A stretch of 64,000 nt of DNA, from the NCBI GenBank assembly GCA_016125225.1, contig WGME01000004.1:372001-436000 (forward strand), read 5' to 3'. The notes under the pieces were generated by a model. That model ran no database searches and had not been told where the DNA came from. It saw only the letters and a program-made list of their open reading frames with translations. Shown piece after piece: positions 5,319-54,083 of this stretch. Numbering within the stretch: position 1 is the stretch's first letter; every line of letters begins with the position of its first letter. Both the position numbers and the translations under genes were made by a program. This stretch comes from a bacterium (lineage in GTDB: Bacteria > Planctomycetota > Planctomycetia > Planctomycetales > Planctomycetaceae).

Positions 5319-6029
5319 ATGCAGTACGCCGCTCAACTGATCGATTTGCAGAAGCATTACCAGCTGGGTGAGCACACTGTCCGTGCGCTCCGGGGCGTCA
5401 CGCTCGATTTCCCGGTCGGCGATTTTGTTGCCATCATGGGTTCTTCGGGAAGTGGCAAGAGTACGATGCTGAACGTGCTCGGTGCGCTCGATCGACCTAC
5501 CAGCGGGCATTATATTCTGGGGGGCGATGACGTCAGCATCATGGATGACGATCGCCTTTCGGAAATCCGCAACCGCCGGATCGGGTTTATCTTTCAGTCG
5601 TACAATTTGATTGCTCAGTACACGGTCCTGGAAAACATTCAGGTTCCTTTGCACTACCGCCGCGATCACCGGCAACTCAGTGCGCAGGATATGAATCGCT
5701 GTCTTGATCTGGCGTCGCGCGTCGGACTGGCGGAACGGTTGGATCACCGCCCGTTTCAATTGTCCGGCGGTCAGCAGCAACGTGTCGCAATTGCCCGGGC
5801 CTTAGTGAATGATCCCGATATCATTCTCGCCGACGAACCGACGGGGAATCTCGATTCAGTCACGGAAAAAGAGATCATGGACTTCCTGACCAGTCTCAAT
5901 CGAGAAGGCCGCACGATTATCATGGTGACTCACGAAACGTCGGTGGCCAGCCGTGCTCGCCGACAGATCGTGATGAAAGACGGACTGGTGGCCCGCGAAG
6001 GAATGCTGATGACTCACGATGGAAAGTAG
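5319..6029 (+). CDS. ABC transporter ATP-binding protein, MacB/LolD type
   Basis: Cytoplasmic ATPase of the efflux system, 236 residues, the usual length for a stand-alone LolD/MacB-type nucleotide-binding protein. Walker A is GSSGSGKST, the Q-loop is FIFQSYNLI, the signature is [15 protein letters not shown], Walker B is [12 protein letters not shown], and the switch His follows in MVTHE. All catalytic motifs are intact. It lies between the adaptor and the permease on the same strand, so it should drive that permease. The 143-nt gap upstream has no clear Shine-Dalgarno next to the ATG and instead carries degenerate CCTGACTCCTG-type repeats. Confidence 0.93.
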
Positions 6030-6044
6030 TGCCAAGGTCTCAGA

Positions 6045-6073
6045 TTTCAGGGATCAGAATGAAATCCCTGAAA
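6045..6073 (+). repeat. Hairpin between ATPase and permease genes
   Basis: Perfect 10-bp inverted repeat, TTTCAGGGAT and ATCCCTGAAA, with a 9-nt loop. It stands in a 99-nt gap rich in degenerate CTGAAACC / CCTGAC words like those before the ATPase gene. It may tune the level of the permease relative to the ATPase. Confidence 0.45.
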
Positions 6074-6128
6074 CCCACCTGACACTTTTGACCTGATTGC
6101 TAACACCCGACTCCTGATACCCAATCCC

Positions 6129-7493
6129 ATGTCACCGACCGGACTCATTCGCGCGATTCGCCTGGCCTTCAAAAGCCTGTTGCTGCACAAGCTGCGCTCC
6201 GGCTTGACGATGCTGGGGATTGTGTTCGGCGTCTTCTCGGTGATCGCCATGCTGGCGATTGGTGAAGGGGCCAGCGCCCAGGCACAACAACAGGTGCTCG
6301 CATTGGGGGCCACCAACATCATCGTACTGTCGGTGAAGCCGCCCGAAGATACCGGAGCCGCTTCCGGAAGCAGTGGCAGCCGGTCACGAACCCGCATGCT
6401 GCAATACGGGCTGCTGCGATCCGATTATAAATTGCTGGTTGATACCATCCCGACAATCAACGGCGCCGTGCCGATGCGCGAGGTGCCTAGCGAAACACGC
6501 TATCTCGCACAAACCATCAACGCGCGCATTGTCGGTTGCACGCCAGAATATCTCGAGATGAATCATCTGGAGTTACAACGCGGTCGGTTCATCAGCGATC
6601 AGGATCAGGAACAGCTTTCGAACGTTTGCGTGATTGGTGCCGAGACCGCATCGATCCTCTTTCCGTTCGATAATCCCATCGATCAGGCGATTCAGATCAA
6701 GAACTATCGTTATCGGGTGATCGGTGTCACTCGGCAGCGGACCGCTTCTGCCGCAGTGGGGGGCAGCATGTCGGGGCAGGATTTCAACAAGGACGTTTAT
6801 ATCCCGCTGAAGACCTTGCAGGTCCGCATTGGTGATGCCGTCGCGAATGCCACCGCGGGAAGTTTTTCCGCTGAGAAAGTAGAACTGAATCAGATCACAT
6901 TGCGGGTGCGCGATGTCGAGGACGTGTTGCCGACGGCGGAAGTCGTCAAAGAGTCTCTGGAACGGACGCATGGCCGCGTCAAAGACTGGGACGTGATTGT
7001 TCCCTTGGAACTGCTCAAGCAAGCCGATCAGATCCGGCAGATCTTTAATATCGTGCTGGGCTCGATTGCGGCGATCAGCCTGGTGGTCGGTGGCATCGGC
7101 ATCATGAACATCATGCTTGCCACGGTGACCGAGCGCACCCGCGAAATCGGTATCCGGCGGGCTCTTGGGGCCCGCCGTCAGGACATTATTTCGCAATTCC
7201 TGACCGAGACAATTGTCTTGTCCGGGGCCGGTGGGCTGATCGGCGTGCTGTTGGGGTTATCCACCCCCTTTGCTTTCAAAGGGATTCAGTGGGTCGTGGA
7301 AAACTTCGTGCTGGACCCTTCGGCACAGACCTCGCCGCTTGGACAGATGCTCACGGATATGCACCCCCAAATTGCCATGTGGAGTCTGCCTGTCGCTTTT
7401 GGCATCTCGGTCGGCATTGGTGTGGTCTTCGGCATCTATCCCGCGCGATCGGCGGCCTACATGGACCCGATCGAAGCTCTGCGCCACGAATAA
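6129..7493 (+). CDS. ABC transporter permease, MacB/FtsX type
   Basis: Inner-membrane permease, 454 residues. Order: N-terminal helix ([23 protein letters not shown]), a large MacB-type periplasmic core (about residues 45-310), then three C-terminal helices of the FtsX domain starting near [20 protein letters not shown]. The conserved motif [14 protein letters not shown] follows the second helix. MacB proper fuses the ATPase and permease; here they are separate genes. With the upstream adaptor and TolC-like channel it would form a mechanotransmission-type exporter for macrolide-like, peptide or lipid substrates; the substrate cannot be read from sequence. Confidence 0.92.
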
Positions 7494-7834
7494 TCTTCCC
7501 TCGCTCGCGACACAGAGCCTTCTGTCTTCTCGCGGACTGCACCTCATATTTTGTCAGGCAACTGAGGTGACATTTGGGGTTTCTACGAGGTTGCATCGGG
7601 AAATTTGGCCCCGAGGGACATGGGTTGTCGCATAGCCTCCACGAGGTGGCCGACCCGCATCATGGTCATCCTTGGTGCAAAGAGCCGGCGGGCTGCTGCC
7701 TTACGGTTTAGCGTCAGGCCCGGTTTCCGGGGTGATTACGCCGCGTTGGCAGCGGGATCGTTGGCATGGGCTCTTGGTGGAGCCCTGTTGGCATCTGAGC
7801 CAGTACCGGTATTGCGGGCGCGAACAGGCATTGT
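7494..7834. other. Intergenic region without recognised features
   Basis: About 340 bases between the efflux operon and the AraC regulator. Track ORFs here are short, overlap in several frames and have no family motifs. No clear terminator hairpin with a T-run was found. It probably contains the AraC-gene promoter. Confidence 0.4.
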
Positions 7835-8854
7835 GTGAGAGGATCAGCGGTGATCATTCCGACGAAACTGCGGCCCGATATGCCACCGTCCTATGTCTCG
7901 CTCTCAAGTTCCGGCATGGGACATCGCATGACAGTGGTGCCAGACAATCTGATCGATCCTGATCCTACCTCGGCGTTGCTGGAGCATTTGCAACTGCGCT
8001 GTCAGACCACGCACGAGAACAGCCTGAGTCCCGAGGCCAATATTGTTGAGTGCTCAGATTTACAACCCTTGTTCCACTATGTAGTGGCAGGGAGTTGTCT
8101 CTTTGAAGATGCACAAACGACGCTTCCTCTGGAGGCCGGCGATCTGCTTTTGCAGTTCGAGGGGACTCCCCATCGATTACAGGTTTCGGATAAGGGATCT
8201 CCGGGGATGGGCATCGCTGATTCTTCCGGACGGAATTATGACTGTGTGCAAGTACTCACAGGACGCATTCACGCCGCGGGGAACGACTGGACTTTGCTAC
8301 AGAATTCCCTGCCCTCGCGCATCGTCCTTCGCCGCGATGATCCCCATCGACAAGGGATCTCGCAGATTCTCCAGAACGTATCCGAAGAGTTGAAGGACGA
8401 GCAGGCTGGGTCATGGGTTATTGTGAATCATTTGTTCACATTGGTTCTGATGCATCTGGCCCGCCACGCCTTGCAGGGCAATCCCCCTGAACTCTCCAAC
8501 TGGCTGCGGGGCCTCCGAGATGCTGAACTGGGGCCGATCATGTCGCGAATGCTCCGGCAGCCGGAGTGGCCGTGGACCATTGCCTCATTAGCCGAATCTG
8601 GCCAGCTTGCCAGGTCCACCTTTGCCCGCCGCTTTCGGCAAGTCGTGGGCGAAGCCCCGATGGACGTTTTGACCACCATCCGTATGCGGATCGCCTGTGA
8701 ACTGTTGCAGAGTGATTTGGGGCTGAAAGAGCTCTCCCGGCGGGTCGGTTATCGGTCGGTTTCTGCCTTCAGTGTCGCCTTTCGCCGCAAGTACCAGTCT
8801 TCCCCGTGGCAATACCGCCAACACGTTCAGGCATCGAGCCTGCCTCGGCGCTAA
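7835..8854 (+). CDS. AraC-family transcriptional regulator with cupin sensor
   Basis: Probable DNA-binding regulator, up to 339 residues. The N-terminal half reads as an AraC-type cupin, with FHYVVAGSCLFED and LEAGDLLLQFEGTPHRL. The C-terminal 95 residues are a double helix-turn-helix: first WTIASLAESGQLARSTFARRFR, second LKELSRRVGYRSVSAFSVAFRRKY, which match the family well. The track start is a GTG at 7835; ATGs at 7880, 7916 or 7928 are possible and none has a clear Shine-Dalgarno, so the first 15-30 residues are uncertain. It is the only regulator near the efflux operon and could control it, but its targets are not shown by the sequence. Confidence 0.85.
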   Translation: MRGSAVIIPTKLRPDMPPSYVSLSSSGMGHRMTVVPDNLIDPDPTSALLEHLQLRCQTTHENSLSPEANIVECSDLQPLFHYVVAGSCLFEDAQTTLPLEAGDLLLQFEGTPHRLQVSDKGSPGMGIADSSGRNYDCVQVLTGRIHAAGNDWTLLQNSLPSRIVLRRDDPHRQGISQILQNVSEELKDEQAGSWVIVNHLFTLVLMHLARHALQGNPPELSNWLRGLRDAELGPIMSRMLRQPEWPWTIASLAESGQLARSTFARRFRQVVGEAPMDVLTTIRMRIACELLQSDLGLKELSRRVGYRSVSAFSVAFRRKYQSSPWQYRQHVQASSLPRR

Positions 8855-38413: not shown

Positions 38414-39934
38414 ATGGCCTATCAACGTCGCCTGCTCCGTTATGGTCCCTCGCCGGATGAACTGCTGGAATCGCTGGATGAGCGGGCCATTGCCGGTTGT
38501 CGATTTACCCTCGAACGTGTTGGCGGTTGCGGTGCGGGGCAATTGAAGTTGCGTGATGCTTTTGCCGATCGTGCGGCGTTGACCGTCGGAACCTGGATTG
38601 CCTGCGAGTATGCCGATGGGGATCGCTGGTATCTGGGCCAGATTGTGGAACGGGTCACCCAGAGTCCGGCGGGGATCACGTTGCAACTGGCGGGTCTGTC
38701 GCAACAGTTGCAGCAGGTCTTTCCCGGGGGATTCGGTGTCGACAGTGATGATCCGCCGCATCGGTATGCGCTCACCGATTTGTTTTCCGAAGATCCCGAT
38801 CGTGCTCTGGAAACACTTGATGTGGTCGAACGTCCGGAAGACATCGTGCGGCTGCTGCTGTCGCAGTATGTCGTCTCGGCGACCAGCATCACCTATGTGC
38901 CGGAACTTGTGGAGAATGCCGACGTCATGGCCGATGTCGCCAGCTTGAAGTTTTATGGCGAAGAGTCGGTCAGTTCGATTCTCAAAGACCTGGCCTTGCG
39001 GGTGCAGCACGCTGCGTGGGGTGTGAATGAAGCGGGTCAATTTTACTTTCTGCCGGAACGCAGCACGCTGCTGATGACGTGCCAGGAAAGCGTGGATGCG
39101 GTCGAACTCCGTGAGTCAGTGTCTCACGATCAAATCTTCAATCGTGTGCTGCTCACCGGTGGCTACATTTATGGTCCGCTCGGCACCGCCCGCTGGCGTG
39201 CCAATTATCGGCAACCGGCGAGCATCGCGACGTATGGGGAACGTCGCATCAAAATCTGGGTCCCTTGGATTCGAACCAGCGAAGACTCACAGCAATTCGT
39301 GCGGGAATTCTTCGATGTCTATGCCCAGCCCACCAATCATTTCCGAGTGACGATCGCAAATCCGACGACCTGCCCTTGGCCCTGGTTGGGATGCGTGCGG
39401 CTGCTGGATAGTGAGAGCAATGAACTGATCACCGCTCAACCAGAACGTGTCATCGTGGAGTTCGACCACACCCCTGTGCTTACATTTGAACTCGGGCCGG
39501 ATGATCCCCGCAAACTCTGGCCGTCGCCGCCGCATGAAGAACGCTATCCACGTGAACGGTTATCAGAATTTGATCTCACTGACCCACCGAGCGACTTCGG
39601 TTCTTCCAGCGATGATGAGAGCAGTGGTCTCACCAGCACCGCCAGTTCTTCTTCGGACGACATGACAACTTCGAGCGGATCGTGGTCCAGCAGTGAAGCA
39701 GGTTCCGATGCAGGATCGTCTGCCGCCAGCTCCTCGGCTGCTGAGTCCGATTCCGGAAGTGATTCGTCACTGGTTTCGTCGAGCATGCTGATATCGGACG
39801 CATCAAGTTCCGACATGAGTTTCGATAGCGATTCGTCGTCTGAACTGCCGCCACCGTGGTCGGGACCCGGTTCGAGTGGAGGAGGCGGGAGTGGAAGCGG
39901 CGGCAGCGGTTGGTCGGGGACGGGATCGCTCTAG
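38414..39934 (+). CDS. Baseplate/tail-hub-like protein with Ser/Asp/Gly-rich tail
   Basis: 506 residues. N-terminal 380 residues look like a phage hub or tail-tip protein: CRFTLERVGGCGAGQLKLRD, then RWYLGQIVERVTQSPAGITLQLAGL, a late VSSILKDLALRVQHAAWGVNE, and FNRVLLTGGYIYGPLG. From about residue 396 to the end the protein is almost entirely Ser, Asp, Gly and Ala, with a short PPPWSGPG interruption, and probably unstructured. Such acidic Ser-rich tails may be glycosylated or adhesive; the downstream glycosyltransferase makes that testable. Confidence 0.65.
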   Translation: MAYQRRLLRYGPSPDELLESLDERAIAGCRFTLERVGGCGAGQLKLRDAFADRAALTVGTWIACEYADGDRWYLGQIVERVTQSPAGITLQLAGLSQQLQQVFPGGFGVDSDDPPHRYALTDLFSEDPDRALETLDVVERPEDIVRLLLSQYVVSATSITYVPELVENADVMADVASLKFYGEESVSSILKDLALRVQHAAWGVNEAGQFYFLPERSTLLMTCQESVDAVELRESVSHDQIFNRVLLTGGYIYGPLGTARWRANYRQPASIATYGERRIKIWVPWIRTSEDSQQFVREFFDVYAQPTNHFRVTIANPTTCPWPWLGCVRLLDSESNELITAQPERVIVEFDHTPVLTFELGPDDPRKLWPSPPHEERYPRERLSEFDLTDPPSDFGSSSDDESSGLTSTASSSSDDMTTSSGSWSSSEAGSDAGSSAASSSAAESDSGSDSSLVSSSMLISDASSSDMSFDSDSSSELPPPWSGPGSSGGGGSGSGGSGWSGTGSL

Positions 39935-42173: not shown

Positions 42174-45068
42174 CTACCGCGAGCCTTCGCCACTGGAGAC
42201 GCCATCGGCGCGCCATTCCCGGGTGTCGGGATTGAATTCAATCCGTTGCAGACTGACGGGCGGTCGTTCCACTCCCGGCACAATTTGCGGCCAGAGCCGG
42301 GCCTTGTTCTTGCCGCGCGAAACCAGTTGATAAGTGCCACGAACTTCATCGAAGGCAATCTGGTCTGCGGAGGCTGCGAAACCATCGCCTTCCAGCCAGG
42401 CGTTGCCATCGCCCTTGATCTGAATGGCTTTTTCGGGTCGATCGGGAAGAGTAACTTGACGGACTTCCAGGACCGAGCACGACATAAAGCCCCCGCCTTT
42501 GGGTAACTGGTCGCGCGAGAGTGTCTGATTGGGCAGCTTCACCGGGCCATGCAGAATTTCGACCCGTTCCTTGAAGACGGCATAGTGATGATGCATATGG
42601 CCATCCATGCGGCCATCGAATTTGACGCGTGTGTATTGCCATTCCGAGGCATCGAGTTGGATGGGGGCGTTCGGCCGGGCCGATTGCGAGGCCACCAGGT
42701 TGGTGCGTGGGCCTTTGCCACGTCGCCACATTTCCATTACTCCGGGCCCTTGCGCCAGCATCTCGCCCGAGAGGCGGTTGATGTGCAGCTCCCAGACTTC
42801 CGCGGCTTGCTTCTCGATGAGCTTATTGGCCTCGTAGATCAAACTCAGCAGTTCGACATGGTCGCGACAGGTAATCGACTTCAGTTGAATGTTGTGCAGG
42901 TCGGTCGGCGGCCGCATGAAGTTGATCGGTTCGGTCAGCGTGACTTCCATTGTCGTGCACGAGAGGCGTCGGCCTTCGAGCATCGCGGTGGCATTGCCAC
43001 GGAACGTTGCCAGTTGGCCATCGAACGACAAGCGGTCTTCCCAAGAGACGTTCAGCAGGGCGGGCGTTCCCAGCTTCTTTCCTTCCATGTCGGAAGTCAT
43101 CGGAAACTGCAAGGCCCCGCGGCCCTGAATGTCAAACTGGTTATCGGCGCGGTGCAGATGCATTTCGCCCGCTTCCAGTTGGGTTTCTCCATTTCGGATG
43201 ACGGCCGGTTTGCCATAGAGATGAAGCACCTGATCGTTCATGTTCCGATTTTCAACATGGGCCGAATCCGCGATGACCGTGAAGCCCTGCGTCTCTTCGG
43301 TCTTTGGCTGCTCCAGCACCACGCGGCCCTCTGTCCAGACATCGGCCAGATCAGGCGTTTGTCCCGCTCGGGGTCGCAAACGGACTCGGATGGTTTCTGC
43401 ATGGGCATCGATGGGTTGCTTCGCCGACTGCTCTGTTGGGGCATCTTGTGCAGCCGGTTGTTCGACTTCATTGGAAGCCGTCATGACCCCTTCCGGTTCG
43501 GAGAGGGCCGCTTCGTGGTCGAGCCAGACGAGGAGTTGCTTGCCCCGCGCTTCGACTTGCGGATTGACGAGCACCACATTCTCGTGCGCTTCCATGCGTT
43601 CCAACTCGACCTGCCGCATGTTCGTGAGAAGCGCTGAGTTACTTTTGGTATCGTTTGAAGAGGTTTGCGCCGGCCGGAGCCAGACACGGATGAGTTCCGC
43701 ACCGAGCGCACTTTCTTCCCGTGGTTGTCGAAACGAGGCGGCCTCTCGCAGTTCGATCAGATCGAGTCCACTCACCGGGTCGGACCCATGTTGCAGTTGG
43801 TAACGCCAATCGGCAGCAAAGGCAATTTCCCGATCTTTGGGATCTCGATAGACCACCCAACCCGGACCGCGGCACATGGCCGATTTCAGTTTCTGGCGAT
43901 CTCCCAGTGTGAAAGTCACGTCGGGACATTGCAGAATCGGTTGGCGGGCCTGCAGGATCACCACCCCTTCAGGATGGGTCAGTCGGACTTGCTGTTGATC
44001 GCCGTGATACCACAGCGTTGTCGCCCGGCATTCAAGCTGATGTTGCGTGGAAGAGAGACGGATGACGGGAATCTCATCACCCTCTTCATTGGGATAGGCC
44101 TCGGCCTGCAGCCAGCGGAACTTCAACCGGGGATGAAGCTGCTGATACAATCCCGGCTGGCCTTCATCCGGCAACATCCGAGTTGGTCGGCCATCGTCCG
44201 GAGCGGCAAATTGCAGGCTCAAGCGATCGCATTCGATCGAGTCATACTCCGTCGGTCCGGTTTGTCGGAATGCCGCCACATCGTCGGAATACACCGCCCG
44301 CTGCTGTAACACATCGTAGATAAAGCTGCCGCTGCAGTTCACGGTCAATTCGAGCGGTTCGTCTTTCTCTTCGAGCTGCAATTTCATCTGCACATTGCGG
44401 CTGAGTTGCAGATCCTTCACGCCGAAAATGTGAGGCCGGTCATTGCCCGGAGAACCGGCTTGACGAATCAGATTGACCTGCATTTTATCCGCACTGCCTC
44501 GATTGCCGGCATACTCGAAGCGAACAGGGGAATCACTCCAGAGAGCGTCGCCCGCTTCCGAGAAATAGAAGTTGCGACCATCGAGCAACATCCCATTGGG
44601 GCCGGTCATTTGAGCCCGGCCGAGTAACTGTGCTGTCACCATGCGACCCGGCTTGGGGTCTGGCATTTCGAAGGACCCTGCAAATTTCACCAGGGCGGAT
44701 TCGCTTACCAGTGTGATGGCTTCTTCGTCGCCCGTTTTGGGATTCTTGGTCATCCAGACCAGGGCGAATGGTTGGAGGCGGATGCGGCCAGCGTCTCCTT
44801 CCGGAATCCATTGATTCGTATAGACGAACGAATTGGAACTGTGGAGGTTATAACGGGCCTGAGCCGCCCATTCCTGCTGCGGAAGAAACGTTTTCGCAAC
44901 CCGCACATTTTCGAGAGGCCGCGAAGAGACCGGCGCTCGTGGAATGACCGGCGAACTCACCGTCAACGTGGGGAGTTGTATGAGGGGTTGCATGCACACG
45001 GCATAGCCGACGTAGACCCCTGTCAATGACAGGGCGACAGCGACCGTGAATAACAACCGGGATACCAT
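42174..45068 (-). CDS. Very large LptC/LptA (OstA)-like envelope protein
   Basis: 964 residues. N-terminal membrane anchor (LLFTVAVALSLTGVYVGYAV) followed by a long beta-strand region with repeated OstA-type words: YDSIECDRLSLQFA, HQLECRATTLWYHG, HVENRNMNDQVLHLYGKP, TQLEAGEMHLHRADNQFDIQGRG, EGRRLSCTTMEVTL. LptA and LptC use such beta-jellyroll repeats to pass lipopolysaccharide across the periplasm. The gene follows kdsD on the same strand, the order kdsD-lptC-lptA known from enteric bacteria. An LptC anchor plus LptA-like repeats in one chain is an inference from sequence and synteny; it could be a dedicated planctomycete family. Confidence 0.68.
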   Translation of the reverse strand: MVSRLLFTVAVALSLTGVYVGYAVCMQPLIQLPTLTVSSPVIPRAPVSSRPLENVRVAKTFLPQQEWAAQARYNLHSSNSFVYTNQWIPEGDAGRIRLQPFALVWMTKNPKTGDEEAITLVSESALVKFAGSFEMPDPKPGRMVTAQLLGRAQMTGPNGMLLDGRNFYFSEAGDALWSDSPVRFEYAGNRGSADKMQVNLIRQAGSPGNDRPHIFGVKDLQLSRNVQMKLQLEEKDEPLELTVNCSGSFIYDVLQQRAVYSDDVAAFRQTGPTEYDSIECDRLSLQFAAPDDGRPTRMLPDEGQPGLYQQLHPRLKFRWLQAEAYPNEEGDEIPVIRLSSTQHQLECRATTLWYHGDQQQVRLTHPEGVVILQARQPILQCPDVTFTLGDRQKLKSAMCRGPGWVVYRDPKDREIAFAADWRYQLQHGSDPVSGLDLIELREAASFRQPREESALGAELIRVWLRPAQTSSNDTKSNSALLTNMRQVELERMEAHENVVLVNPQVEARGKQLLVWLDHEAALSEPEGVMTASNEVEQPAAQDAPTEQSAKQPIDAHAETIRVRLRPRAGQTPDLADVWTEGRVVLEQPKTEETQGFTVIADSAHVENRNMNDQVLHLYGKPAVIRNGETQLEAGEMHLHRADNQFDIQGRGALQFPMTSDMEGKKLGTPALLNVSWEDRLSFDGQLATFRGNATAMLEGRRLSCTTMEVTLTEPINFMRPPTDLHNIQLKSITCRDHVELLSLIYEANKLIEKQAAEVWELHINRLSGEMLAQGPGVMEMWRRGKGPRTNLVASQSARPNAPIQLDASEWQYTRVKFDGRMDGHMHHHYAVFKERVEILHGPVKLPNQTLSRDQLPKGGGFMSCSVLEVRQVTLPDRPEKAIQIKGDGNAWLEGDGFAASADQIAFDEVRGTYQLVSRGKNKARLWPQIVPGVERPPVSLQRIEFNPDTREWRADGVSSGEGSR

Positions 45069-45156
45069 AGGTTCAAACGGCTCTTGCAGAATCGTGGTTG
45101 GTCAAATCGTTGTTCACAATTCCCGCGTGAAAACACCACCATTGAGGTGGCAGCGA

Positions 45157-46170
45157 TCAGGTCATGTTCGGCATCAGACCCAGCACATCGGTGATGTCGA
45201 TGAGACCCACGGGATGACCTGTGGCATTGACGACGGGCAATTCACTCAAGTGGCGTTGACTCATCAATTGCACGGCTTCACCGAGGATCGCCGTCTCAGC
45301 AATTGTGATGGGTCGGGCCGTCATCACTTCCGACATCGACCGATCGAGTTGTTCGTCACGGCGTTGTTCGAGTAACCGGGCCAGATCGCTATCGGTGAAG
45401 AGACCACTCAAGCATTGTTCGGTATCGACGAGCATCACCGCACCGGTGCGACGACCGGGGCGACACAGTGTGGTCAGCACATCTCTGACAGTGGCTGTCT
45501 CGCAGGCGATGCGGAGTTCGTCCCCTTTCCGCATGATCTCGTTCACGGGTGTCAAACGCCGTCCGAGACTGCCCCCCGGATGAAACCGTCCAAACTCCTG
45601 CGGTGTAAACCCACGGGATTCCGCAACGACGATCGCCAGGGCATCACCGAGGGCCAGCATGGCAATCGCACTTGATGTCGGTGGCAACCCATGCAGACCC
45701 GCTTCCGCAATCTGTCCCAGGCACAAAGTCACATCGGCTTGCGTTGCCAGGGTGCTCAGGGGACGTCCGGTCATGGCAATCAGCGGCACTCCCGCCTGTC
45801 GTAGTGAAGGCAGCAGTTGAACGACCTCGCTGCTTTCGCCGCTGTTCGAAAGAATCAGCATGACGTCGTCACGACCGACACAGCCGAGGTCGCCATGAAA
45901 GGCTTCGGTGGGATGCAGGAAAAACGAGCGCGTGCCGGTGGAACAAAACGTGGCGACCAGCTTCTGCCCGATCAACCCCGCCTTGCCGACGCCGGTGACA
46001 ATGACACAGCCGGTGCATTGAGCGAGTTGCTCGACGGCGGCACAGAACGACGCATCGAGCCGACGAGATAAATCGAGCAGAGTTTGCCCTTCGTGGACAA
46101 TCACGTCTCGCGCGGTACGCAGTTGCTCAAAATGCGAATAGGGCACAACGGCCGCGGCTGCCGTTTGCAT
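45157..46170 (-). CDS. kdsD: Arabinose-5-phosphate isomerase
   Basis: 337 residues from ATG 46170, preceded by AAGGAGG; the track start is ten codons earlier. N-terminal SIS sugar-isomerase domain (VIVTGVGKAGLIGQKLVATF, LILSNSGESSEVVQLLPSL) and two C-terminal CBS domains (VNEIMRKGDELRIA; MSEVMTARPITIAETAILGEAV). Converts ribulose 5-phosphate to arabinose 5-phosphate for Kdo synthesis. Next to the LptC/A-like gene it supports a Kdo-containing lipopolysaccharide. A GutQ-like role is an alternative name for the same chemistry. Confidence 0.92.
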   Translation of the reverse strand: MQTAAAAVVPYSHFEQLRTARDVIVHEGQTLLDLSRRLDASFCAAVEQLAQCTGCVIVTGVGKAGLIGQKLVATFCSTGTRSFFLHPTEAFHGDLGCVGRDDVMLILSNSGESSEVVQLLPSLRQAGVPLIAMTGRPLSTLATQADVTLCLGQIAEAGLHGLPPTSSAIAMLALGDALAIVVAESRGFTPQEFGRFHPGGSLGRRLTPVNEIMRKGDELRIACETATVRDVLTTLCRPGRRTGAVMLVDTEQCLSGLFTDSDLARLLEQRRDEQLDRSMSEVMTARPITIAETAILGEAVQLMSQRHLSELPVVNATGHPVGLIDITDVLGLMPNMT

Positions 46171-46375: not shown

Positions 46376-47428
46376 ATGCAGGTTCTCGTCACAGGCGGAG
46401 CAGGCTTCATCGGTTCGGCGGTCATCCGGGATATGCTGACGCAAACGTCCTGGAGCGTGGTCAATTGCGACAAACTGACCTATGCCGGGAACCTGGAATC
46501 ACTTGCAAGTGTTTCCGGCGATTCACGTTACGTCTTTGAACAGGTCGATATCTGCGATGTAGCCGAGGTCGCCCGGCTGTTCGATCAGTATCGTCCGAAC
46601 GGGGTGATGCATCTCGCTGCGGAATCCCATGTCGACCGGTCGATCGACGGCCCGGCCGACTTCATTCAGACGAACATTGTGGGCACTTACACGCTTCTGC
46701 AGGCGGCCCGGAATTATTGGTCGACGTTGGCTGGTGCCGACCGCGACGCGTTCCGTTTTCATCACATTTCGACCGATGAAGTGTACGGATCGCTGGGGGA
46801 GGACGGCTACTTTTACGAGACCACACCGTACGACCCGAACTCTCCTTACGCGGCGAGTAAGGCCTCCTCGGATCATCTGGTGCGGGCTTGGGAACACACG
46901 TTTGGCCTGCCGACGATTGTGACCAATTGCTCGAACAACTACGGGCCCTATCAGTATCCCGAAAAGCTTATTCCGCTCATCATTCACAATGCCCTCGCCG
47001 GGAAGACACTGCCGGTCTATGGCACGGGGGCCAATGTCCGCGACTGGCTGTATGTCGAAGACCATGCCCGCGCGCTACGTCGGGTCTTCACCGCAGGCCA
47101 AGTCGGCGAGACCTATAATATCGGCGGACACAACGAACGCAAAAACATCGACGTGGTGCACGAACTCTGCCGATTGCTGGATGAACTCGTGCCAGCTTCG
47201 CCCTTCCGACCACATGCCAAGCTGATTCAATTCGTGACTGATCGCCCAGGTCACGATCAACGCTATGCGATCGATGCCAGCAAGATCGAACGCGAACTCG
47301 GCTGGAAACCAGAGGAAACCTTCGAGACCGGTTTGCGGAAAACCGTCGAATGGTATCTCGACAATCAGGGATGGTGTCAACGAGCCATGGCCGGCCGTTA
47401 CCACGGCGAAAGACTCGGGAAAGGCTAA
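46376..47428 (+). CDS. rfbB: dTDP-glucose 4,6-dehydratase
   Basis: 350 residues. Makes dTDP-4-keto-6-deoxyglucose. NAD-binding [29 protein letters not shown], the catalytic [15 protein letters not shown] and YAASKASSD (YxxxK), and [14 protein letters not shown] are all intact and diagnostic for RmlB. It pairs with rfbA downstream, separated by a repeat-bearing gap. rmlC and rmlD are not in the window, so rhamnose synthesis cannot be assumed; the intermediate could feed amino sugars through the nearby aminotransferase. Confidence 0.95.
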
Positions 47429-47532
47429 GGGTTCAGGGTTTAGAGTTGAGAGTTCAGACATGATTCTCAGTTCGGCCCCGCAATCCAAATGCCTTGCTCT
47501 TATCTATCAACCCTTAACTCTCAACCATCGAC
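47423..47532 (+). repeat. Intergenic repeat element, copy 2
   Basis: Same ends as the element at 37766..37890: GGCTAAGGGTTCAGGG at the left, which includes the rfbB stop, and AACTCTCAACCATCGAC at the right. Inside is GTTGAGAGTT, which pairs with AACTCTCAAC at the right end, so the transcript can fold over a 61-nt loop. It ends seven bases before the rfbA start. Confidence 0.65.
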
Positions 47533-47539
47533 CATACAC

Positions 47540-48418
47540 ATGACCCGCAAAGGCATCATTCTCGCAGGGGGATCGGGGACACGGTTGTACCCGGCGACCA
47601 AGGCCATCAGTAAGCAACTGATGCCGGTCTACGACAAACCGATGATCTACTACCCATTGTCCACGCTGATGCTGGCGGGCATTCGTGACGTGCTGATCAT
47701 CACCACGCCGCATGATCAGCCGTTGTTTCAGGCCCTGCTGGGAGATGGCACGCCCTGGGGGATTCGCATCGAATACGCCATCCAGCCACAACCCAACGGA
47801 CTGGCGGAGGCATTTCGTATTGGAGCTTCATTTGTCGGTGACAATCCAAGTTGCCTGGTGCTCGGCGACAACCTCTTCTATGCGCATGGATTAGCTGAAA
47901 CCTTACAGCAGGCGTCGCAGCGGACGGAAGGGGCCACGGTTTTCGCCTACCCCGTGCGTGACCCCGAACGGTATGGTGTGGTCGTCGTTGATGCCCACGG
48001 CCGACCCACCGAGATCGCCGAAAAACCGAAGCAACCGAAGTCACGCCTCGCCGTGACGGGTCTTTACTTCTATGACCAGCAGGTGATCGAAATTGCCCGC
48101 GATCTGAAACCTTCGGCTCGTGGCGAACTTGAAATCACCGATGTGAACCGCATCTATCTGGAACGGGGGCAACTCTATGTCGAAGAGTTCGGCCGTGGTT
48201 CCGCCTGGCTCGATACTGGCACCCACGAGTCACTGCTCGAAGCCGCGACCTTCGTCAGCGTCCTCGAATCACGACAGGGCTTGAAAATCGCCTGCCCGGA
48301 AGAAGTCGCCTGGCGCATGGGCTTCATCGATCAGCAACAACTCGCCGCCCTCGCCGAACCCCTCAAGAAAAGCACCTACGGCCAATACCTGCTCGAGTTG
48401 CTGCAGTCGAGTCGTTGA
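47540..48418 (+). CDS. rfbA: Glucose-1-phosphate thymidylyltransferase
   Basis: 292 residues from ATG 47540 ([18 protein letters not shown]); the track start lies in the repeat element. RmlA nucleotidyltransferase signature [64 protein letters not shown] and [16 protein letters not shown]. Makes dTDP-glucose for rfbB. No Shine-Dalgarno is obvious, as the preceding bases are the repeat element. Confidence 0.96.
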
Positions 48419-48491
48419 AGACGGATGTTCCCTGAATAGTAATGTGTGATGATCAGCGATATTGGTAAGTGGGACATCAATATGAGTTCGG

Positions 48492-49355
48492 CTATCGTCG
48501 ACTAATCAATCGGCGCAGCGGCCACGTCAGTGCGAATCCCAGCCGGTGGCTCAGGGATTGCGTAATCTCTCCCATTTCATCCACGAGGTGCCGTGCAAAG
48601 TGATGCTGCCCCGCAAAAAGATCTGGCAGGCATTCCGCCGGGAGATGTTCTGCAAGTTGGGGGTAGACATCAAGGAGTTTGAGAGAGCGGGTCAACCAGG
48701 CTTGTGTACTCCAGACGCCGCCGGAATGTAATCGATAGCAGGCCATGGGTTCAGGCAGCATGCCGATTGGGCCACATCGAGCGGCGAGGAGACACAGCGG
48801 CCAATCACCCATGGGCATCGTCCGCACCCAGTCTGGAAGTGCTGGCAACATGTCTCGGCGGATGACAAGCGAACACGTCTGAATGCAATTGCCACGGCAA
48901 AGATCAGCGAATGTGACTTCCGATGCAATGTGTCGAGGGTGGACCTGCCCCGTGGGTTGCCCGTTCTGATTCACATAGATCACGGGATGGAAGCAACCGC
49001 TCCAATGGGGGTGGGCTTCGAGGGCTTCGATCTGCAGTTTCAGTTTCTGGGGATTGGTCCAGTAATCATCCCCTTCCAGAAACGCAATAAAATCCCCCGT
49101 GCAGGCTGCATACGCATCCAGGAAATTGGCCATCATCCCCAGGTTGGAAGCATGCAGCCTTGGCTGAATCTGTCCTGGATAGGCTGTGGCGATGCTACGA
49201 ATCACATCAGCAGTACGATCGGTCGAAGCATCTTCACCGATGATGATTTCCAGTGGAGCGACACCCTGTTGATCGAGTGCGCTTCGTACGGCCTGTTCGA
49301 TGTAGTGTGCATGATTGTAGGTAATCATGCACACGCTGACTTTCTTGGTTGTCAT
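48492..49355 (-). CDS. Family 2 glycosyltransferase
   Basis: 287 residues, GT-A fold: VSVCMITYNHAHYIEQAVRSAL, IIIGEDASTDRTADVIRSI and the metal-binding FIAFLEGDDYWTNPQKL. It ends in a long C-terminal region without a membrane helix. The start overlaps the aminotransferase stop by 4 nt, so the genes are co-translated. It probably adds a sugar to the exported polymer of the same operon. Confidence 0.92.
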   Translation of the reverse strand: MTTKKVSVCMITYNHAHYIEQAVRSALDQQGVAPLEIIIGEDASTDRTADVIRSIATAYPGQIQPRLHASNLGMMANFLDAYAACTGDFIAFLEGDDYWTNPQKLKLQIEALEAHPHWSGCFHPVIYVNQNGQPTGQVHPRHIASEVTFADLCRGNCIQTCSLVIRRDMLPALPDWVRTMPMGDWPLCLLAARCGPIGMLPEPMACYRLHSGGVWSTQAWLTRSLKLLDVYPQLAEHLPAECLPDLFAGQHHFARHLVDEMGEITQSLSHRLGFALTWPLRRLISRR

Positions 49356-50572
49356 CTCAAAGAGAATCCATCAAACGCATCGCCCGGAGCAAGCCGGGCT
49401 TCCAGTTGCTCACTCAGTTCCGCGGAATGAGTCATCGCCCAACGCAGAATATCCCCGATTTGAGCGATCATCTCCGGCGTCACAGCGGTTCCCGTGGGCA
49501 TCACAATCACTCGTTGCACCACATCCTCGGTTACCGGTAACAGCAGATAGGCGTTCGGATAGTAGGCGCGGTAAGGTTCCATGCGATGCACGCCCGGGAA
49601 GAAATATCGTCGGGCCAGCACGTGGTGAGCATGTAACACCTGCAGAATCTGATCACGAGTCAATGGACAGACTGCGGGGTCAACATCGAGAACCAGATAC
49701 TGATAGTTCTGTCGCTCGGATTCGTTGTAACTCTGTACCGTGATGCCCGGCAAATCAGCAAGGGCCTGTTGATAGGCCTGATAGTTTCGGTAGTTGACTG
49801 CAATAAAGTCCGACATGCTATCAAGAGAAGTGAGGCCCACCGCCGCAGAGAACTCACTCATCTTTCCATTCGTACCAATGTAAATCACGCGGTCATAACC
49901 GGAAAAACCAAAATTCCGCATGAGTCGCATTTTGTCGGCGAGCGCATCATTATTCGTGACGACTGCACCACCTTCTGCACAGTTCACAAACTTTGTCGCA
50001 TGAAAGCTGAAGACCTCTGCAAGACCAAAAGACCCGATAGGTTGATTTTGATGGCCACATCCGAAGGCGTGAGCTGCATCGTACATCAGTATGAGGCCAT
50101 GCTTATTGGCGATACACTCCAACGCGTCGGTGTCGCAGCCGCGACCCCAGACGTGCACACCGATAATCGCCGATGTGCGTGGAGTGATAAGCCGCGCTAT
50201 CTGCTCCGGATCGATGTTGTGCGTGACAGGATCGATATCGCAGAACACGGGAGTCAGCTGCTGCCATTGCAGGGCATGCGCCGTCGCCACAAACGTATAG
50301 GCGGGGACAATCACCTCGCCCGTCAGACCGGCCGCACGAGTGGCAATTTCCAGCGCCACCGTAGCATTGCACATCGCGACACAATGCCTGGTGCCGGCAA
50401 TCGCGGCTACCCGCGCCTCAAATTCGCGGACCAGCGGTCCATCATTCGACAACCAGTTGCGATCCAGCAAAGCATCGATCCGCTCCTGCAACCGTTGACG
50501 ATCACCCGTATTCGGGCGACCCACATGCAAGGGGTGCGGTAATATCGCAGAACGTAGGAGCGGAGTACTCAC
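49352..50572 (-). CDS. DegT/DnrJ/EryC1-family sugar aminotransferase
   Basis: 406 residues. PLP-dependent enzyme that aminates a keto sugar nucleotide. Motifs: CNATVALEIATRAAG, VPAYTFVATAHALQW, DAAHAFGCGH, and the PLP Lys in FSFHATKFVNCAEGGAVVT. Together with rfbBA it could turn a dTDP-keto sugar into an amino sugar, and the next gene upstream is an acyltransferase that could then acylate it. A specific product such as Fuc3NAc cannot be proved; a ketoisomerase was not found. Confidence 0.92.
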   Translation of the reverse strand: MSTPLLRSAILPHPLHVGRPNTGDRQRLQERIDALLDRNWLSNDGPLVREFEARVAAIAGTRHCVAMCNATVALEIATRAAGLTGEVIVPAYTFVATAHALQWQQLTPVFCDIDPVTHNIDPEQIARLITPRTSAIIGVHVWGRGCDTDALECIANKHGLILMYDAAHAFGCGHQNQPIGSFGLAEVFSFHATKFVNCAEGGAVVTNNDALADKMRLMRNFGFSGYDRVIYIGTNGKMSEFSAAVGLTSLDSMSDFIAVNYRNYQAYQQALADLPGITVQSYNESERQNYQYLVLDVDPAVCPLTRDQILQVLHAHHVLARRYFFPGVHRMEPYRAYYPNAYLLLPVTEDVVQRVIVMPTGTAVTPEMIAQIGDILRWAMTHSAELSEQLEARLAPGDAFDGFSLR

Positions 50573-50584
50573 GTTGGCCCTATG

Positions 50585-51163
50585 TCACGCTGAGGGATCC
50601 TGAAGGCATTGATGCTGCAGTTCTTGCAGACGATTGACATTTCGCGACAACGGAATGACTCGTGCAGGATTACCTGAAACGATAGTTCCTCGCGAAACTG
50701 ACTTTTGGACGAGTGTCAGTGCGCCCACAGCAGATCCATATTCCAGCGTGACATTCGGTAAGATCACTGCGCCGCTACCGATAATCACATGCTGGTGCAA
50801 ATGAATCGGGCCTGAAGTAACCCTGCGATACTGGTTCGGTACTGTGGGATTCGTGAGATATCCTTCCGTAAAATCGTCGGTCGAAGTGAAGAGTGAGACG
50901 CGTGCTGATAATCCAGAGAAATCTTCGAATGTAACAGCACCACCGGCACCAAAGATGTAGCAACCGACTCCCAGGTGAACATGATTTCCAATCGTCAAGC
51001 CCTCTGCACTGGCACTCAACATGCAGAAGCAGTCGATACGGACATGGTCTCCAATGGAAATGTGCTCGCTGCCAAAAATTCGTACCGACCGGTCCAGCCG
51101 CACATCCTGTCCGCAATGACGGAAACGAAATGCCGCGAGTTCTTCAGGAGTGTAACAGTGCAT
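50585..51163 (-). CDS. Hexapeptide-repeat acyltransferase
   Basis: 192 residues with left-handed beta-helix rungs: ISIGDHVRIDCFCMLSA, LTIGNHVHLGVGCYIFGAGG, and VIIGSGAVILPNVTLEYGSAVGALTLV, ending in SGNPARVI, the usual family tail. Acetyl- or acyl-transferase on a sugar or sugar nucleotide. It sits 12 bases before the aminotransferase gene, so N-acylation of the new amino sugar is the best guess. Confidence 0.9.
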   Translation of the reverse strand: MHCYTPEELAAFRFRHCGQDVRLDRSVRIFGSEHISIGDHVRIDCFCMLSASAEGLTIGNHVHLGVGCYIFGAGGAVTFEDFSGLSARVSLFTSTDDFTEGYLTNPTVPNQYRRVTSGPIHLHQHVIIGSGAVILPNVTLEYGSAVGALTLVQKSVSRGTIVSGNPARVIPLSRNVNRLQELQHQCLQDPSA

Positions 51164-51207
51164 ACATCCACCGTGCTGGTCATTAAGACAAGGTCGATTG
51201 AAAATGA

Positions 51208-51837
51208 CTATGACGCCTCGCAGACGAGAGACGATTCGCGGCGCGTTTCGCGATTCTGCAGCGGAATGTGATCACTCTCGCCACAACCGACATCGGTGAT
51301 CTGCGTGAAGCCGGCCTCATGCAGGCGACGGTGGAGTTCTTCACGATCGTACAGCCACAAATGCCCCCATTCGCGGAAGCAGATGTTGACCATCTCGCAC
51401 CCGGTTTTGATCCACGTGTAACCATATTTCTCCAGCCAGGGCTGTTGCTGCCAATCTCCGTCCATATATTGGCGCACGCACTCTCGCATGTCGGGCATGG
51501 CGATTCGCAACACGCCTCCAGGTTGCAGCACGCGGCGGCATTCCTTCAACAGGTTCAGGCCATCCTGCGGGTTGAGATGCTCCAGAAAGTGTTCGCTATA
51601 GATGTACTGGCAAGATGCATCGGGGCAGGGGAGTCCATCTTGTGCGAACCACACGGCGTCAATGTGTGAGAGCGCGGGATTTGCATCCAGATGAATCCAT
51701 TCCGGAAAGTGGATGTCTCCACAACCAAGATGGAGTTGGTAGGGTTGAGGCCGCTTGAGCAAACGTCGCTGAGCAATCCGCCTGCGACGGCGCGACTTCA
51801 TCAAATTGGTTGCGCGTGAAAGCAATGTCAGCATCAT
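51208..51837 (-). CDS. SAM-dependent methyltransferase
   Basis: 209 residues. SAM motif I is [21 protein letters not shown]; motif II/III region [39 protein letters not shown]. Its ATG overlaps the stop of the ABC ATPase gene (ATGA). In characterised ABC-exported O-antigens, a methyltransferase caps the chain and the ATPase's C-terminal domain recognises that cap. The coupling here makes the same role plausible. Confidence 0.9.
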
Positions 51838-53159
51838 GTTCCTTCAACAACGGTGCCAGTCGTCTCAGGTGCGGACAGAAGCGGGATAGCAGACCAGGAA
51901 AGTTGCGGCCGCACCGCGCCAATCACTTTGCCGTACCATTCTTCACGCGAAGTATCGTCGGCGATCGTCAACAGTAACGCATCATCAATCCGCCATTCGC
52001 AGGCAGAGCGATCACGAATCATGTAGAGCTGCAGGCGATAGGTTTCGTCATTCAGCAGATGGGGAGGAATCGTGCAGGTGCAGCGGTACTCTCCGCGTGA
52101 CAGCGGTTCTGCCAGGATGGAATTTCGCAACATGGGGTAAGTATTGAAAACGGGGACACCTTCGGCGGTTTGCAGAACAACGCTGGGGTTCAGCAGCAAC
52201 TGGTCTTCCAAAGCCCAGAAGTCGATCTCCAGATGAATCGATGAGCCGATCGTCAGCTGCCGCGGATCTTCATTGTCAGAAAATGCTGCGATTCTCTTGA
52301 GCCGTACGGCGGGAGTTCCGGGAGCGGTGTCGGGTGTGCCCCAGTGTTTTTCCAGGCAAGGCCGTTGAATGTCTGAGAGATACTGTTGCAGAACGTGACC
52401 GGTTTCGTTGATGTCGCGTGACTCGCCATGATCTAGCCACAGAACTCTTTGGCACAAAGAGCGGACCGCAACGAGATTATGACTGACAAATAGCACCGTG
52501 CGGCCGCTGCGGGCCACGTCGCTCATTTTCCCCAAACACTTCTTCTGGAAAGCGGCGTCACCAACGGCGAGGACTTCGTCGATAATCAGGATTTCGGGTT
52601 CGAGATGTGCGGCGACGGCAAAGCCCAGGCGGACATACATGCCGCTGCTGTAGCGTTTGACCGGAGTATCGAGGAACTGTTCGACATCGGCGAAGGCGAC
52701 GATTTCGTCAAAGCGGCGGCGGACCTCGGCGCGGCTCATGCCGAGGATGGCACCGTTGAGATAGATGTTCTCACGGCCGGTCAGTTCCGGGTGAAACCCC
52801 GTGCCCACTTCGAGCAGGCTACCCACCCGGCCACGGACACGTATGCGGCCGGAGGTCGCCTCGGTGATGCGGGAGAGAATCTTCAGCAGCGTGCTTTTGC
52901 CAGCTCCGTTGTGACCGATGATGCCGACCACTTCTCCTTCCCGCACTTCGAAGGAGACATCGTTCAAGGCCCAGAAATCGCGGGTTGTGGCCTCGGTTTC
53001 GGTTATGCATCGAGTCCCCTGTCGCCACAACTTCCGAGGCCATTGCCGTGCGGCATTTCCCAGGTGATATAACGATTCGGAGAGGCGATAATACGGCTCT
53101 CGCGTTCCAATCTGGAACCGTTTGCTGACACGATCGACTTGTAAGACCAGGTGGCTCAT
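51834..53159 (-). CDS. wzt: O-antigen-type ABC exporter ATPase with C-terminal Wzt domain
   Basis: 441 residues. NBD in the first 260: Walker [15 protein letters not shown], signature [17 protein letters not shown], Walker [13 protein letters not shown], switch VSHNL. The remaining 180 residues form a beta-sandwich Wzt-type cargo-binding domain ([40 protein letters not shown]). It powers export of lipid-linked polysaccharide and reads its chain end. It follows the permease by three bases and overlaps the methyltransferase. Confidence 0.94.
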
Positions 53160-53162
53160 GAT

Positions 53163-54083
53163 TCAGATGCGATCTGCCAGGAATCGATCGACACGCAGGA
53201 AGTACCGGACACAGCCGACCGTGATCACGCTCATTGCTGCCAGCGTGATTAATGCTTCGGACAGTGTCGGCGCGGGGGTACCAAGCAGTGACCACCGCAG
53301 GCCCTCCAGAAGGCCGGTCAGCGGATTCAGATGAAACAGCCAGCGCCATTGAGTGGGAATCAGAGCGGATGTCTCATAGACCACGGGCGACAGAAAGAAG
53401 CCGGTCTGTAACAGGAACGGCACGGCGAAACCGACATCACGATAGAGAGCATTGAGTGCGGCCAGTCCGACCGCCGCCATTGCGGAGCAGAGAATGATGC
53501 CCAGAACGAAAAACGGTGCCAGGACAGCCGTCGGCGATAACGGTTGCTGACAGATTAGCAGCATCACACCCAAAAGCGGCAACGACACGAGCAGATCCAG
53601 CAGCGGGGGAACGATGCAACTCAGCGGCAGGCAGATCCGCGGGAAATAGACTTTGGTCACGAGCGCTTGATTCAGCACCAGCGAGTTCGTGCCCTGAGAG
53701 ACCGTCCCTGCGAAGACTTGCCAACCAAGTAAGCCCGTCAGCAACACCAGAGAATAAGGGACACTCGCCTCTGCGGGATGAGACCCTAACAGACCGAACA
53801 TCGTCATGAAGATCAGCATTTGGGCCAAGGGTTGTAACACGGCCCAAGCGACACCGATGAGTGTCTGCCGGTAGCGGACCTTGAGATCACGCAGGCCGAA
53901 AATGACAATCAGTTCACGATGGGTCCAGAGGTCGTGACAGATCGTCCAGAAGCTGGTGTGGCCGCCCCCAAATTCTTGCCAGACAGCATGAGTTTTTGTC
54001 GACGCTAGATTCGGCTCTCGATCTGCGGACATCGGAACTGTCCCTGAGAGCGTCGCGACAGACGGTGATTCCGGCGGATACAT
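53163..54083 (-). CDS. wzm: O-antigen-type ABC exporter permease
   Basis: 306 residues, ABC-2 family. Amphipathic start then six membrane segments, e.g. ALVTKVYFPRICLPLSCIVPPLLDLLVSLPLLGVMLLIC and VLAPFFVLGIILCSAMAAVGLAAL, with the RYRQTLIGVAWAVLQPLAQMLIFMTMF stretch typical of polysaccharide exporters. It is the first gene of the operon. The Met at 54032, with AGGGA upstream, is an alternative start. Confidence 0.9.
   Translation of the reverse strand: MYPPESPSVATLSGTVPMSADREPNLASTKTHAVWQEFGGGHTSFWTICHDLWTHRELIVIFGLRDLKVRYRQTLIGVAWAVLQPLAQMLIFMTMFGLLGSHPAEASVPYSLVLLTGLLGWQVFAGTVSQGTNSLVLNQALVTKVYFPRICLPLSCIVPPLLDLLVSLPLLGVMLLICQQPLSPTAVLAPFFVLGIILCSAMAAVGLAALNALYRDVGFAVPFLLQTGFFLSPVVYETSALIPTQWRWLFHLNPLTGLLEGLRWSLLGTPAPTLSEALITLAAMSVITVGCVRYFLRVDRFLADRI

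Follow-up and report, generated by a model that had tools for sequence, protein, structure and literature searches.

Within the 64,000-nucleotide stretch of contig WGME01000004.1 analysed here (the window), from a Schlesneria-like planctomycete, two genes on the minus strand form a pair, in which kdsD is followed after 88 bases by an open reading frame of 964 codons with an ATG start and no internal stop (the giant; Table 1). The shared strand and the 88-base gap would suit co-transcription of the two genes. The kdsD product, 337 amino acids long, was assigned its domains by Pfam and NCBIfam; it passes the KpsF/GutQ subfamily cut-off (273 versus 203.7 bits) and scores below the equivalog cut-off for E. 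coli KdsD.

An O-antigen-type glycan cluster adjoins this pair at positions 46376-54083 and holds, besides the genes listed in Table 1, glycosyltransferases, a DegT aminotransferase and a methyltransferase-like reading frame. To the left of the locus, at 38414-39934, lies a 506-residue reading frame with a long serine/glycine-rich low-complexity C-terminal tail, which could encode a phage-tail-type or surface protein.

Table 1. Features of the kdsD-giant locus and the adjoining glycan cluster, in window coordinates.
Feature	Position	Strand	Remarks
Giant LptC-LptA fusion protein	42174..45068	minus	open reading frame; PF03968 in 36 of 44 homologues; predicted fold
Array of divergent LptA/OstA-like jellyroll segments	42198..44171	minus	about residues 300-957 of the giant
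LptC-like domain	44199..44915	minus	about residues 52-290; model and Foldseek; PF06835 in the corresponding region of homologues
N-terminal membrane anchor	44991..45065	minus	helix predicted at residues 2-26; one hydrophobic stretch
kdsD	45157..46170	minus	first gene of the pair; KpsF/GutQ-type arabinose-5-phosphate isomerase, SIS domain and two CBS domains
RmlB-like dTDP-sugar dehydratase	46376..47428	plus	divergent neighbour; O-antigen-type sugar cluster
RmlA-like nucleotidyltransferase	47489..48418	plus	O-antigen-type sugar cluster, alongside the RmlB-like gene
Wzt/Wzm-like polysaccharide ABC transporter pair	51834..54083	minus	neighbouring glycan cluster

The giant reading frame is a real gene, because full-length homologues occur in nearly all relatives and adjoin kdsD at 76 of 80 named loci. 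A homologue was detected in 51 of 59 related genomes. Both genes are present in 18 of 20 fetched regions, on the same strand and either adjacent or separated by one small reading frame (in L045, for example, the giant is the plus-strand frame 5580-8651), while no kdsD was picked up in L047 and L056. Alignment of the giants yielded no usable peptide pattern, and a peptide-pattern scan with the giant returned no named relatives. A search with kdsD instead reached 80 named loci. All carry planctomycete labels (two of them, misleadingly, Kuenenia) apart from two records labelled 'bacterium', and Schlesneria accounts for several of the closest. At the 76 loci the giant lies immediately downstream of kdsD on the same strand, and its median length is 1034 amino acids among the 63 complete copies at kdsD loci. 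Of the four loci lacking a giant, two have under 200 bases of sequence after kdsD. The other two, L174 and L182, have more than 5 kb without one, possibly because the gene has moved or the assembly is broken.

At Pirellulales-type loci, a gap of 530-800 bases between kdsD and the giant holds a KdsC-type HAD phosphatase, recognised by reading the motif DVDGVLTDG from the sequence. An earlier note on this DNA had likened the gene order to the enteric kdsD-lptC-lptA arrangement. The comparison was right, and the homologues with kdsC in between bring it closer to the order in E. coli, kdsD-kdsC-lptC-lptA-lptB (lptC and lptA being yrbK and yhbN). No LptB orthologue was found in the flanks of the giant, where the best ABC match scores 124 bits.

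The same note had proposed that one 964-residue chain carries an LptC-like anchor and OstA-like repeats. Searched alone, the window protein gives zero matches in Pfam or NCBIfam, including PF03968 (LptA/LptD_N) and PF06835 (LptC), so a simple domain search could not have confirmed this call. The likeness is undetectable from the window sequence by itself but clear through homologues and predicted fold, and on both counts the proposal holds up. PF03968 matches 14 of 20 homologues from the class (best E 1.4e-13) and, in a second set, 36 of 44 at E<=0.1; a homologue from the same genus, L040, just exceeds the cut-off (20.6 versus 20.4 bits). PF06835 matches are weak and sub-threshold, in two of the 20 homologues (at residues of about 160-230) and in four of the 44. 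Neither the window protein nor anything else in its genome matches PF06835, the genome having been searched at E<=10, and we therefore do not claim LptC membership by sequence for this protein. Sequence-profile matches of the giant to LptA in the PDB are weak (E 0.018-0.03) and were not relied on.

The decisive family link is provided by LptC and LptA fusions from other planctomycete classes. These proteins of 658-662 amino acids carry PF06835 at residues 47-197 (E 1e-13 to 1e-16) followed by PF03968 (E 1e-21 to 1e-28), and their genes follow kdsD and kdsC, giving the order kdsD-kdsC-lptCA. Profile-profile comparison aligns the short fusions with the window family roughly between residues 119 and 750 (prob 99, E 8e-18). 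The two groups thus have the same gene order and the same LptC-then-LptA succession in one chain, and they differ in that the short fusions (L110, L116) are recognised by Pfam whereas the window type is about 300 residues longer. The genome search that found the short fusions gave no PF06835 match in any genome of the window's class, which fits replacement of a separate LptC by a divergent fusion. A profile built from four of the short fusions (A4) had no match in the window genome, a result that is uninformative as a negative. In one distant planctomycete family, reading frames of 1704 and 1688 amino acids (L204:5388-10502, minus strand; L205:7140-12206, plus strand) contain a weak internal LptC match (E about 6e-5) and are possibly still longer fused bridges.

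The structure of the giant was predicted with AlphaFold2 from a 20-row alignment. The model, with a mean pLDDT of 80.5, consists of one N-terminal helix and a continuous beta-jellyroll whose strands extend to residue 955, interrupted by four low-confidence linkers near residues 292-306, 469-484, 522-549 and 787-807. Hydropathy likewise reveals one N-terminal hydrophobic stretch, preceded by a positive residue, and no second transmembrane-like segment in the window protein. As expected of an LptC, a single N-terminal transmembrane helix is thus predicted to be followed by periplasmic beta-jellyroll. The N-terminal 300 residues modelled alone (pLDDT 85.9) match LptC 4b54 best in Foldseek (prob 1.00, target TM 0.66-0.70), and all their matches with a probability of about 1 are LptC, LptA/LptH, LptD or LptF/G jellyrolls.

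For the whole chain, LptD leads the PDB matches (E 5e-9, prob 1.00), although the superposition is loose (TM 0.16-0.20), and LptA comes next (prob 1.00, target TM up to 0.65). The beta-jellyroll that the earlier note had suggested looking for in the repeats by structure prediction is borne out by these models. Teneurin, Rhs and SF3B entries were rejected, having probabilities of 0.2-0.8 and TM values of 0.1 or less. Internal profile comparison finds segments 485-660 and 805-957 alike (prob 94) and other pairs less so; the repeats are old and divergent. The LptD N-terminal domain belongs to the Pfam family found in homologues of the giant (PF03968) and is its best whole-chain fold match, but the giant lacks a beta-barrel and is predicted to be anchored in the inner membrane, and LptD is encoded by a separate gene in this genome.

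LptD, LptB and LptF/LptG, the partners that the earlier note had named for a genome search, are all encoded in the genome, which totals 6.35 Mb in 42 contigs and is 100% complete. Absence of LptD or LptB, or a fold unrelated to LptA/LptC, would have spoken against the note's reading, and neither was observed. There is an LptD of 1042 amino acids, together with two LptF/LptG-type permeases and one LptB above the curated cut-off (300.7 bits versus 240). As read from the sequence, lptB adjoins signal peptidase I and lpxK. Genes for Kdo2-lipid A synthesis were also detected, namely LpxC, WaaA/KdtA, LpxK and KdsD. In the LptD of this genome (L007:8516-11644), the barrel match begins near residue 564, with LptD_N-like matches upstream, so this protein may have a longer periplasmic jellyroll region than its E. 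coli counterpart.

Taken together, the giant is very probably a single-chain LptC-LptA bridge that takes LPS from LptB2FG to LptD. This assignment was weighed against three alternatives. In E. coli, oligomers of LptA complete the span. The giant might correspondingly supply an LptC-like anchor and only part of the bridge, with a further, undetected soluble LptA completing it, a scenario we consider unlikely but the strongest of the three. Divergence hides LptA-type domains from Pfam in this lineage, and PF03968 misses the giant itself, so a small divergent LptA could escape the same search. Also, one family of the class includes genomes with an extra PF03968 protein of 365-460 amino acids (G056:C8:153188, G484:C393:1065, G499:C279:55596 and G518:C244:6739; in G056 it is on a different contig from the giant). 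Against a separate LptA, PF03968 finds only LptD in the window's genome at E<=1, and the profile of the giant's own family recovers only the giant. Moreover, across 149 genomes of the class nearly all PF03968 matches fall in reading frames of about 1000 amino acids or more, a few in frames of 365-460, and none in a frame of LptA size (150-200 amino acids).

It is very unlikely that the giant is an LptC/LptA-derived transporter for some other glycolipid rather than for lipid A-based LPS. Atypical diderms do retain partial Lpt sets (PMC8871954), but LpxC, LpxK and WaaA are encoded in the genome, kdsD and the O-antigen-type cluster are adjacent, and lpxABCDKL are essential in Planctopirus (PMC10632474). 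Least probable of all is an AsmA-like bridge of the TamB/YhdP type moving phospholipids, which would likewise combine an N-terminal anchor with a long beta groove but belongs to different families: AsmA, TamB and DUF3971 are absent from the matches of the window protein and of both homologue sets (20 and 44 sequences), where PF03968 and PF06835 do appear among homologues, the closest structural matches are to LptD, LptA and LptC, and the giant adjoins the LPS Kdo genes kdsD and kdsC.

As an LptC-LptA bridge, the giant would be a one-polypeptide version of the periplasmic portion of the LPS transport machine. The N-terminal signal anchor would hold it in the inner membrane, where the LptC-like jellyroll behind the anchor would receive the acyl chains of lipid A as the LptB2FG extractor passes them on. 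From there, the LptA-like segments that make up the rest of the chain would extend the same hydrophobic groove toward the N-terminal jellyroll of LptD at the outer membrane. Docking on LptF/G and LptD, LPS as the cargo, and its route and direction of movement are inferred. A rough estimate, which ignores linkers and twist, puts the stack at about 13 nm, taking about 56 strands divided between two sheets and a spacing of about 4.8 angstrom per rung. At that length, a single chain, with the jellyrolls of LptF/G and LptD added, may be enough to span a normal periplasm with no separate LptA subunits. The suggestion in the earlier note that such a protein could bridge the whole periplasm is likewise an estimate from length.

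E. coli LptC and LptA are separate subunits of under 200 amino acids each, whereas the giant is one chain of about 1000. Its LptA-like segments are covalently joined to a membrane anchor, unlike LptA, which is a separate soluble periplasmic subunit. The planctomycete system further departs from that of E. coli in the location of lptB, near lpxK, and in its strong sequence divergence. What the two systems have in common is the kdsD neighbourhood (with kdsC in homologues), the single N-terminal anchor, the jellyroll fold and the presumed task.

Planctomycetes were long thought to lack a normal LPS outer membrane, a premise repeated in the earlier note that is now outdated. It was revised in 2012, when LptD and BamA were reported in these bacteria by an analysis that relied mainly on both (PMC3422733). 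In Gemmata, LPS has since been detected (Mahat et al. 2015, cited by PMC5394234 and PMC10632474), and the premise is further undercut by the essential lpx genes of relatives noted above. A survey of 16 outer-membrane genes described the planctomycete Lpt set as 'largely reduced' (PMC8871954), and we found no description of a fused LptC-LptA in planctomycetes in the open-access literature. The giant appears to be the missing piece of the bridge that eluded earlier surveys of these bacteria. Such a single-chain bridge, well supported as to its family and with a function predicted from sequence and models, is best read as a phylum-wide variant of Lpt.

The length of the proposed bridge ranges between lineages from about 660 to perhaps 1700 residues, and the planctomycete periplasm can be greatly enlarged (PMC5394234). 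More tentatively, the Lpt bridge might be one covalent chain across Planctomycetota whose length sets or matches the distance between the membranes. Such a bridge, of fixed length and with no LptA oligomer, would mark the places where a variable and often enlarged periplasm stays narrow. In planctomycetes, the giant family would supply what was missing between LptB2FG and LptD, and in this group its bridge length can be compared with the width of a periplasm that is sometimes greatly enlarged. A bridge that is naturally one chain also opens a debated question to testing, because a fixed covalent bridge would exclude shuttling of LptA.
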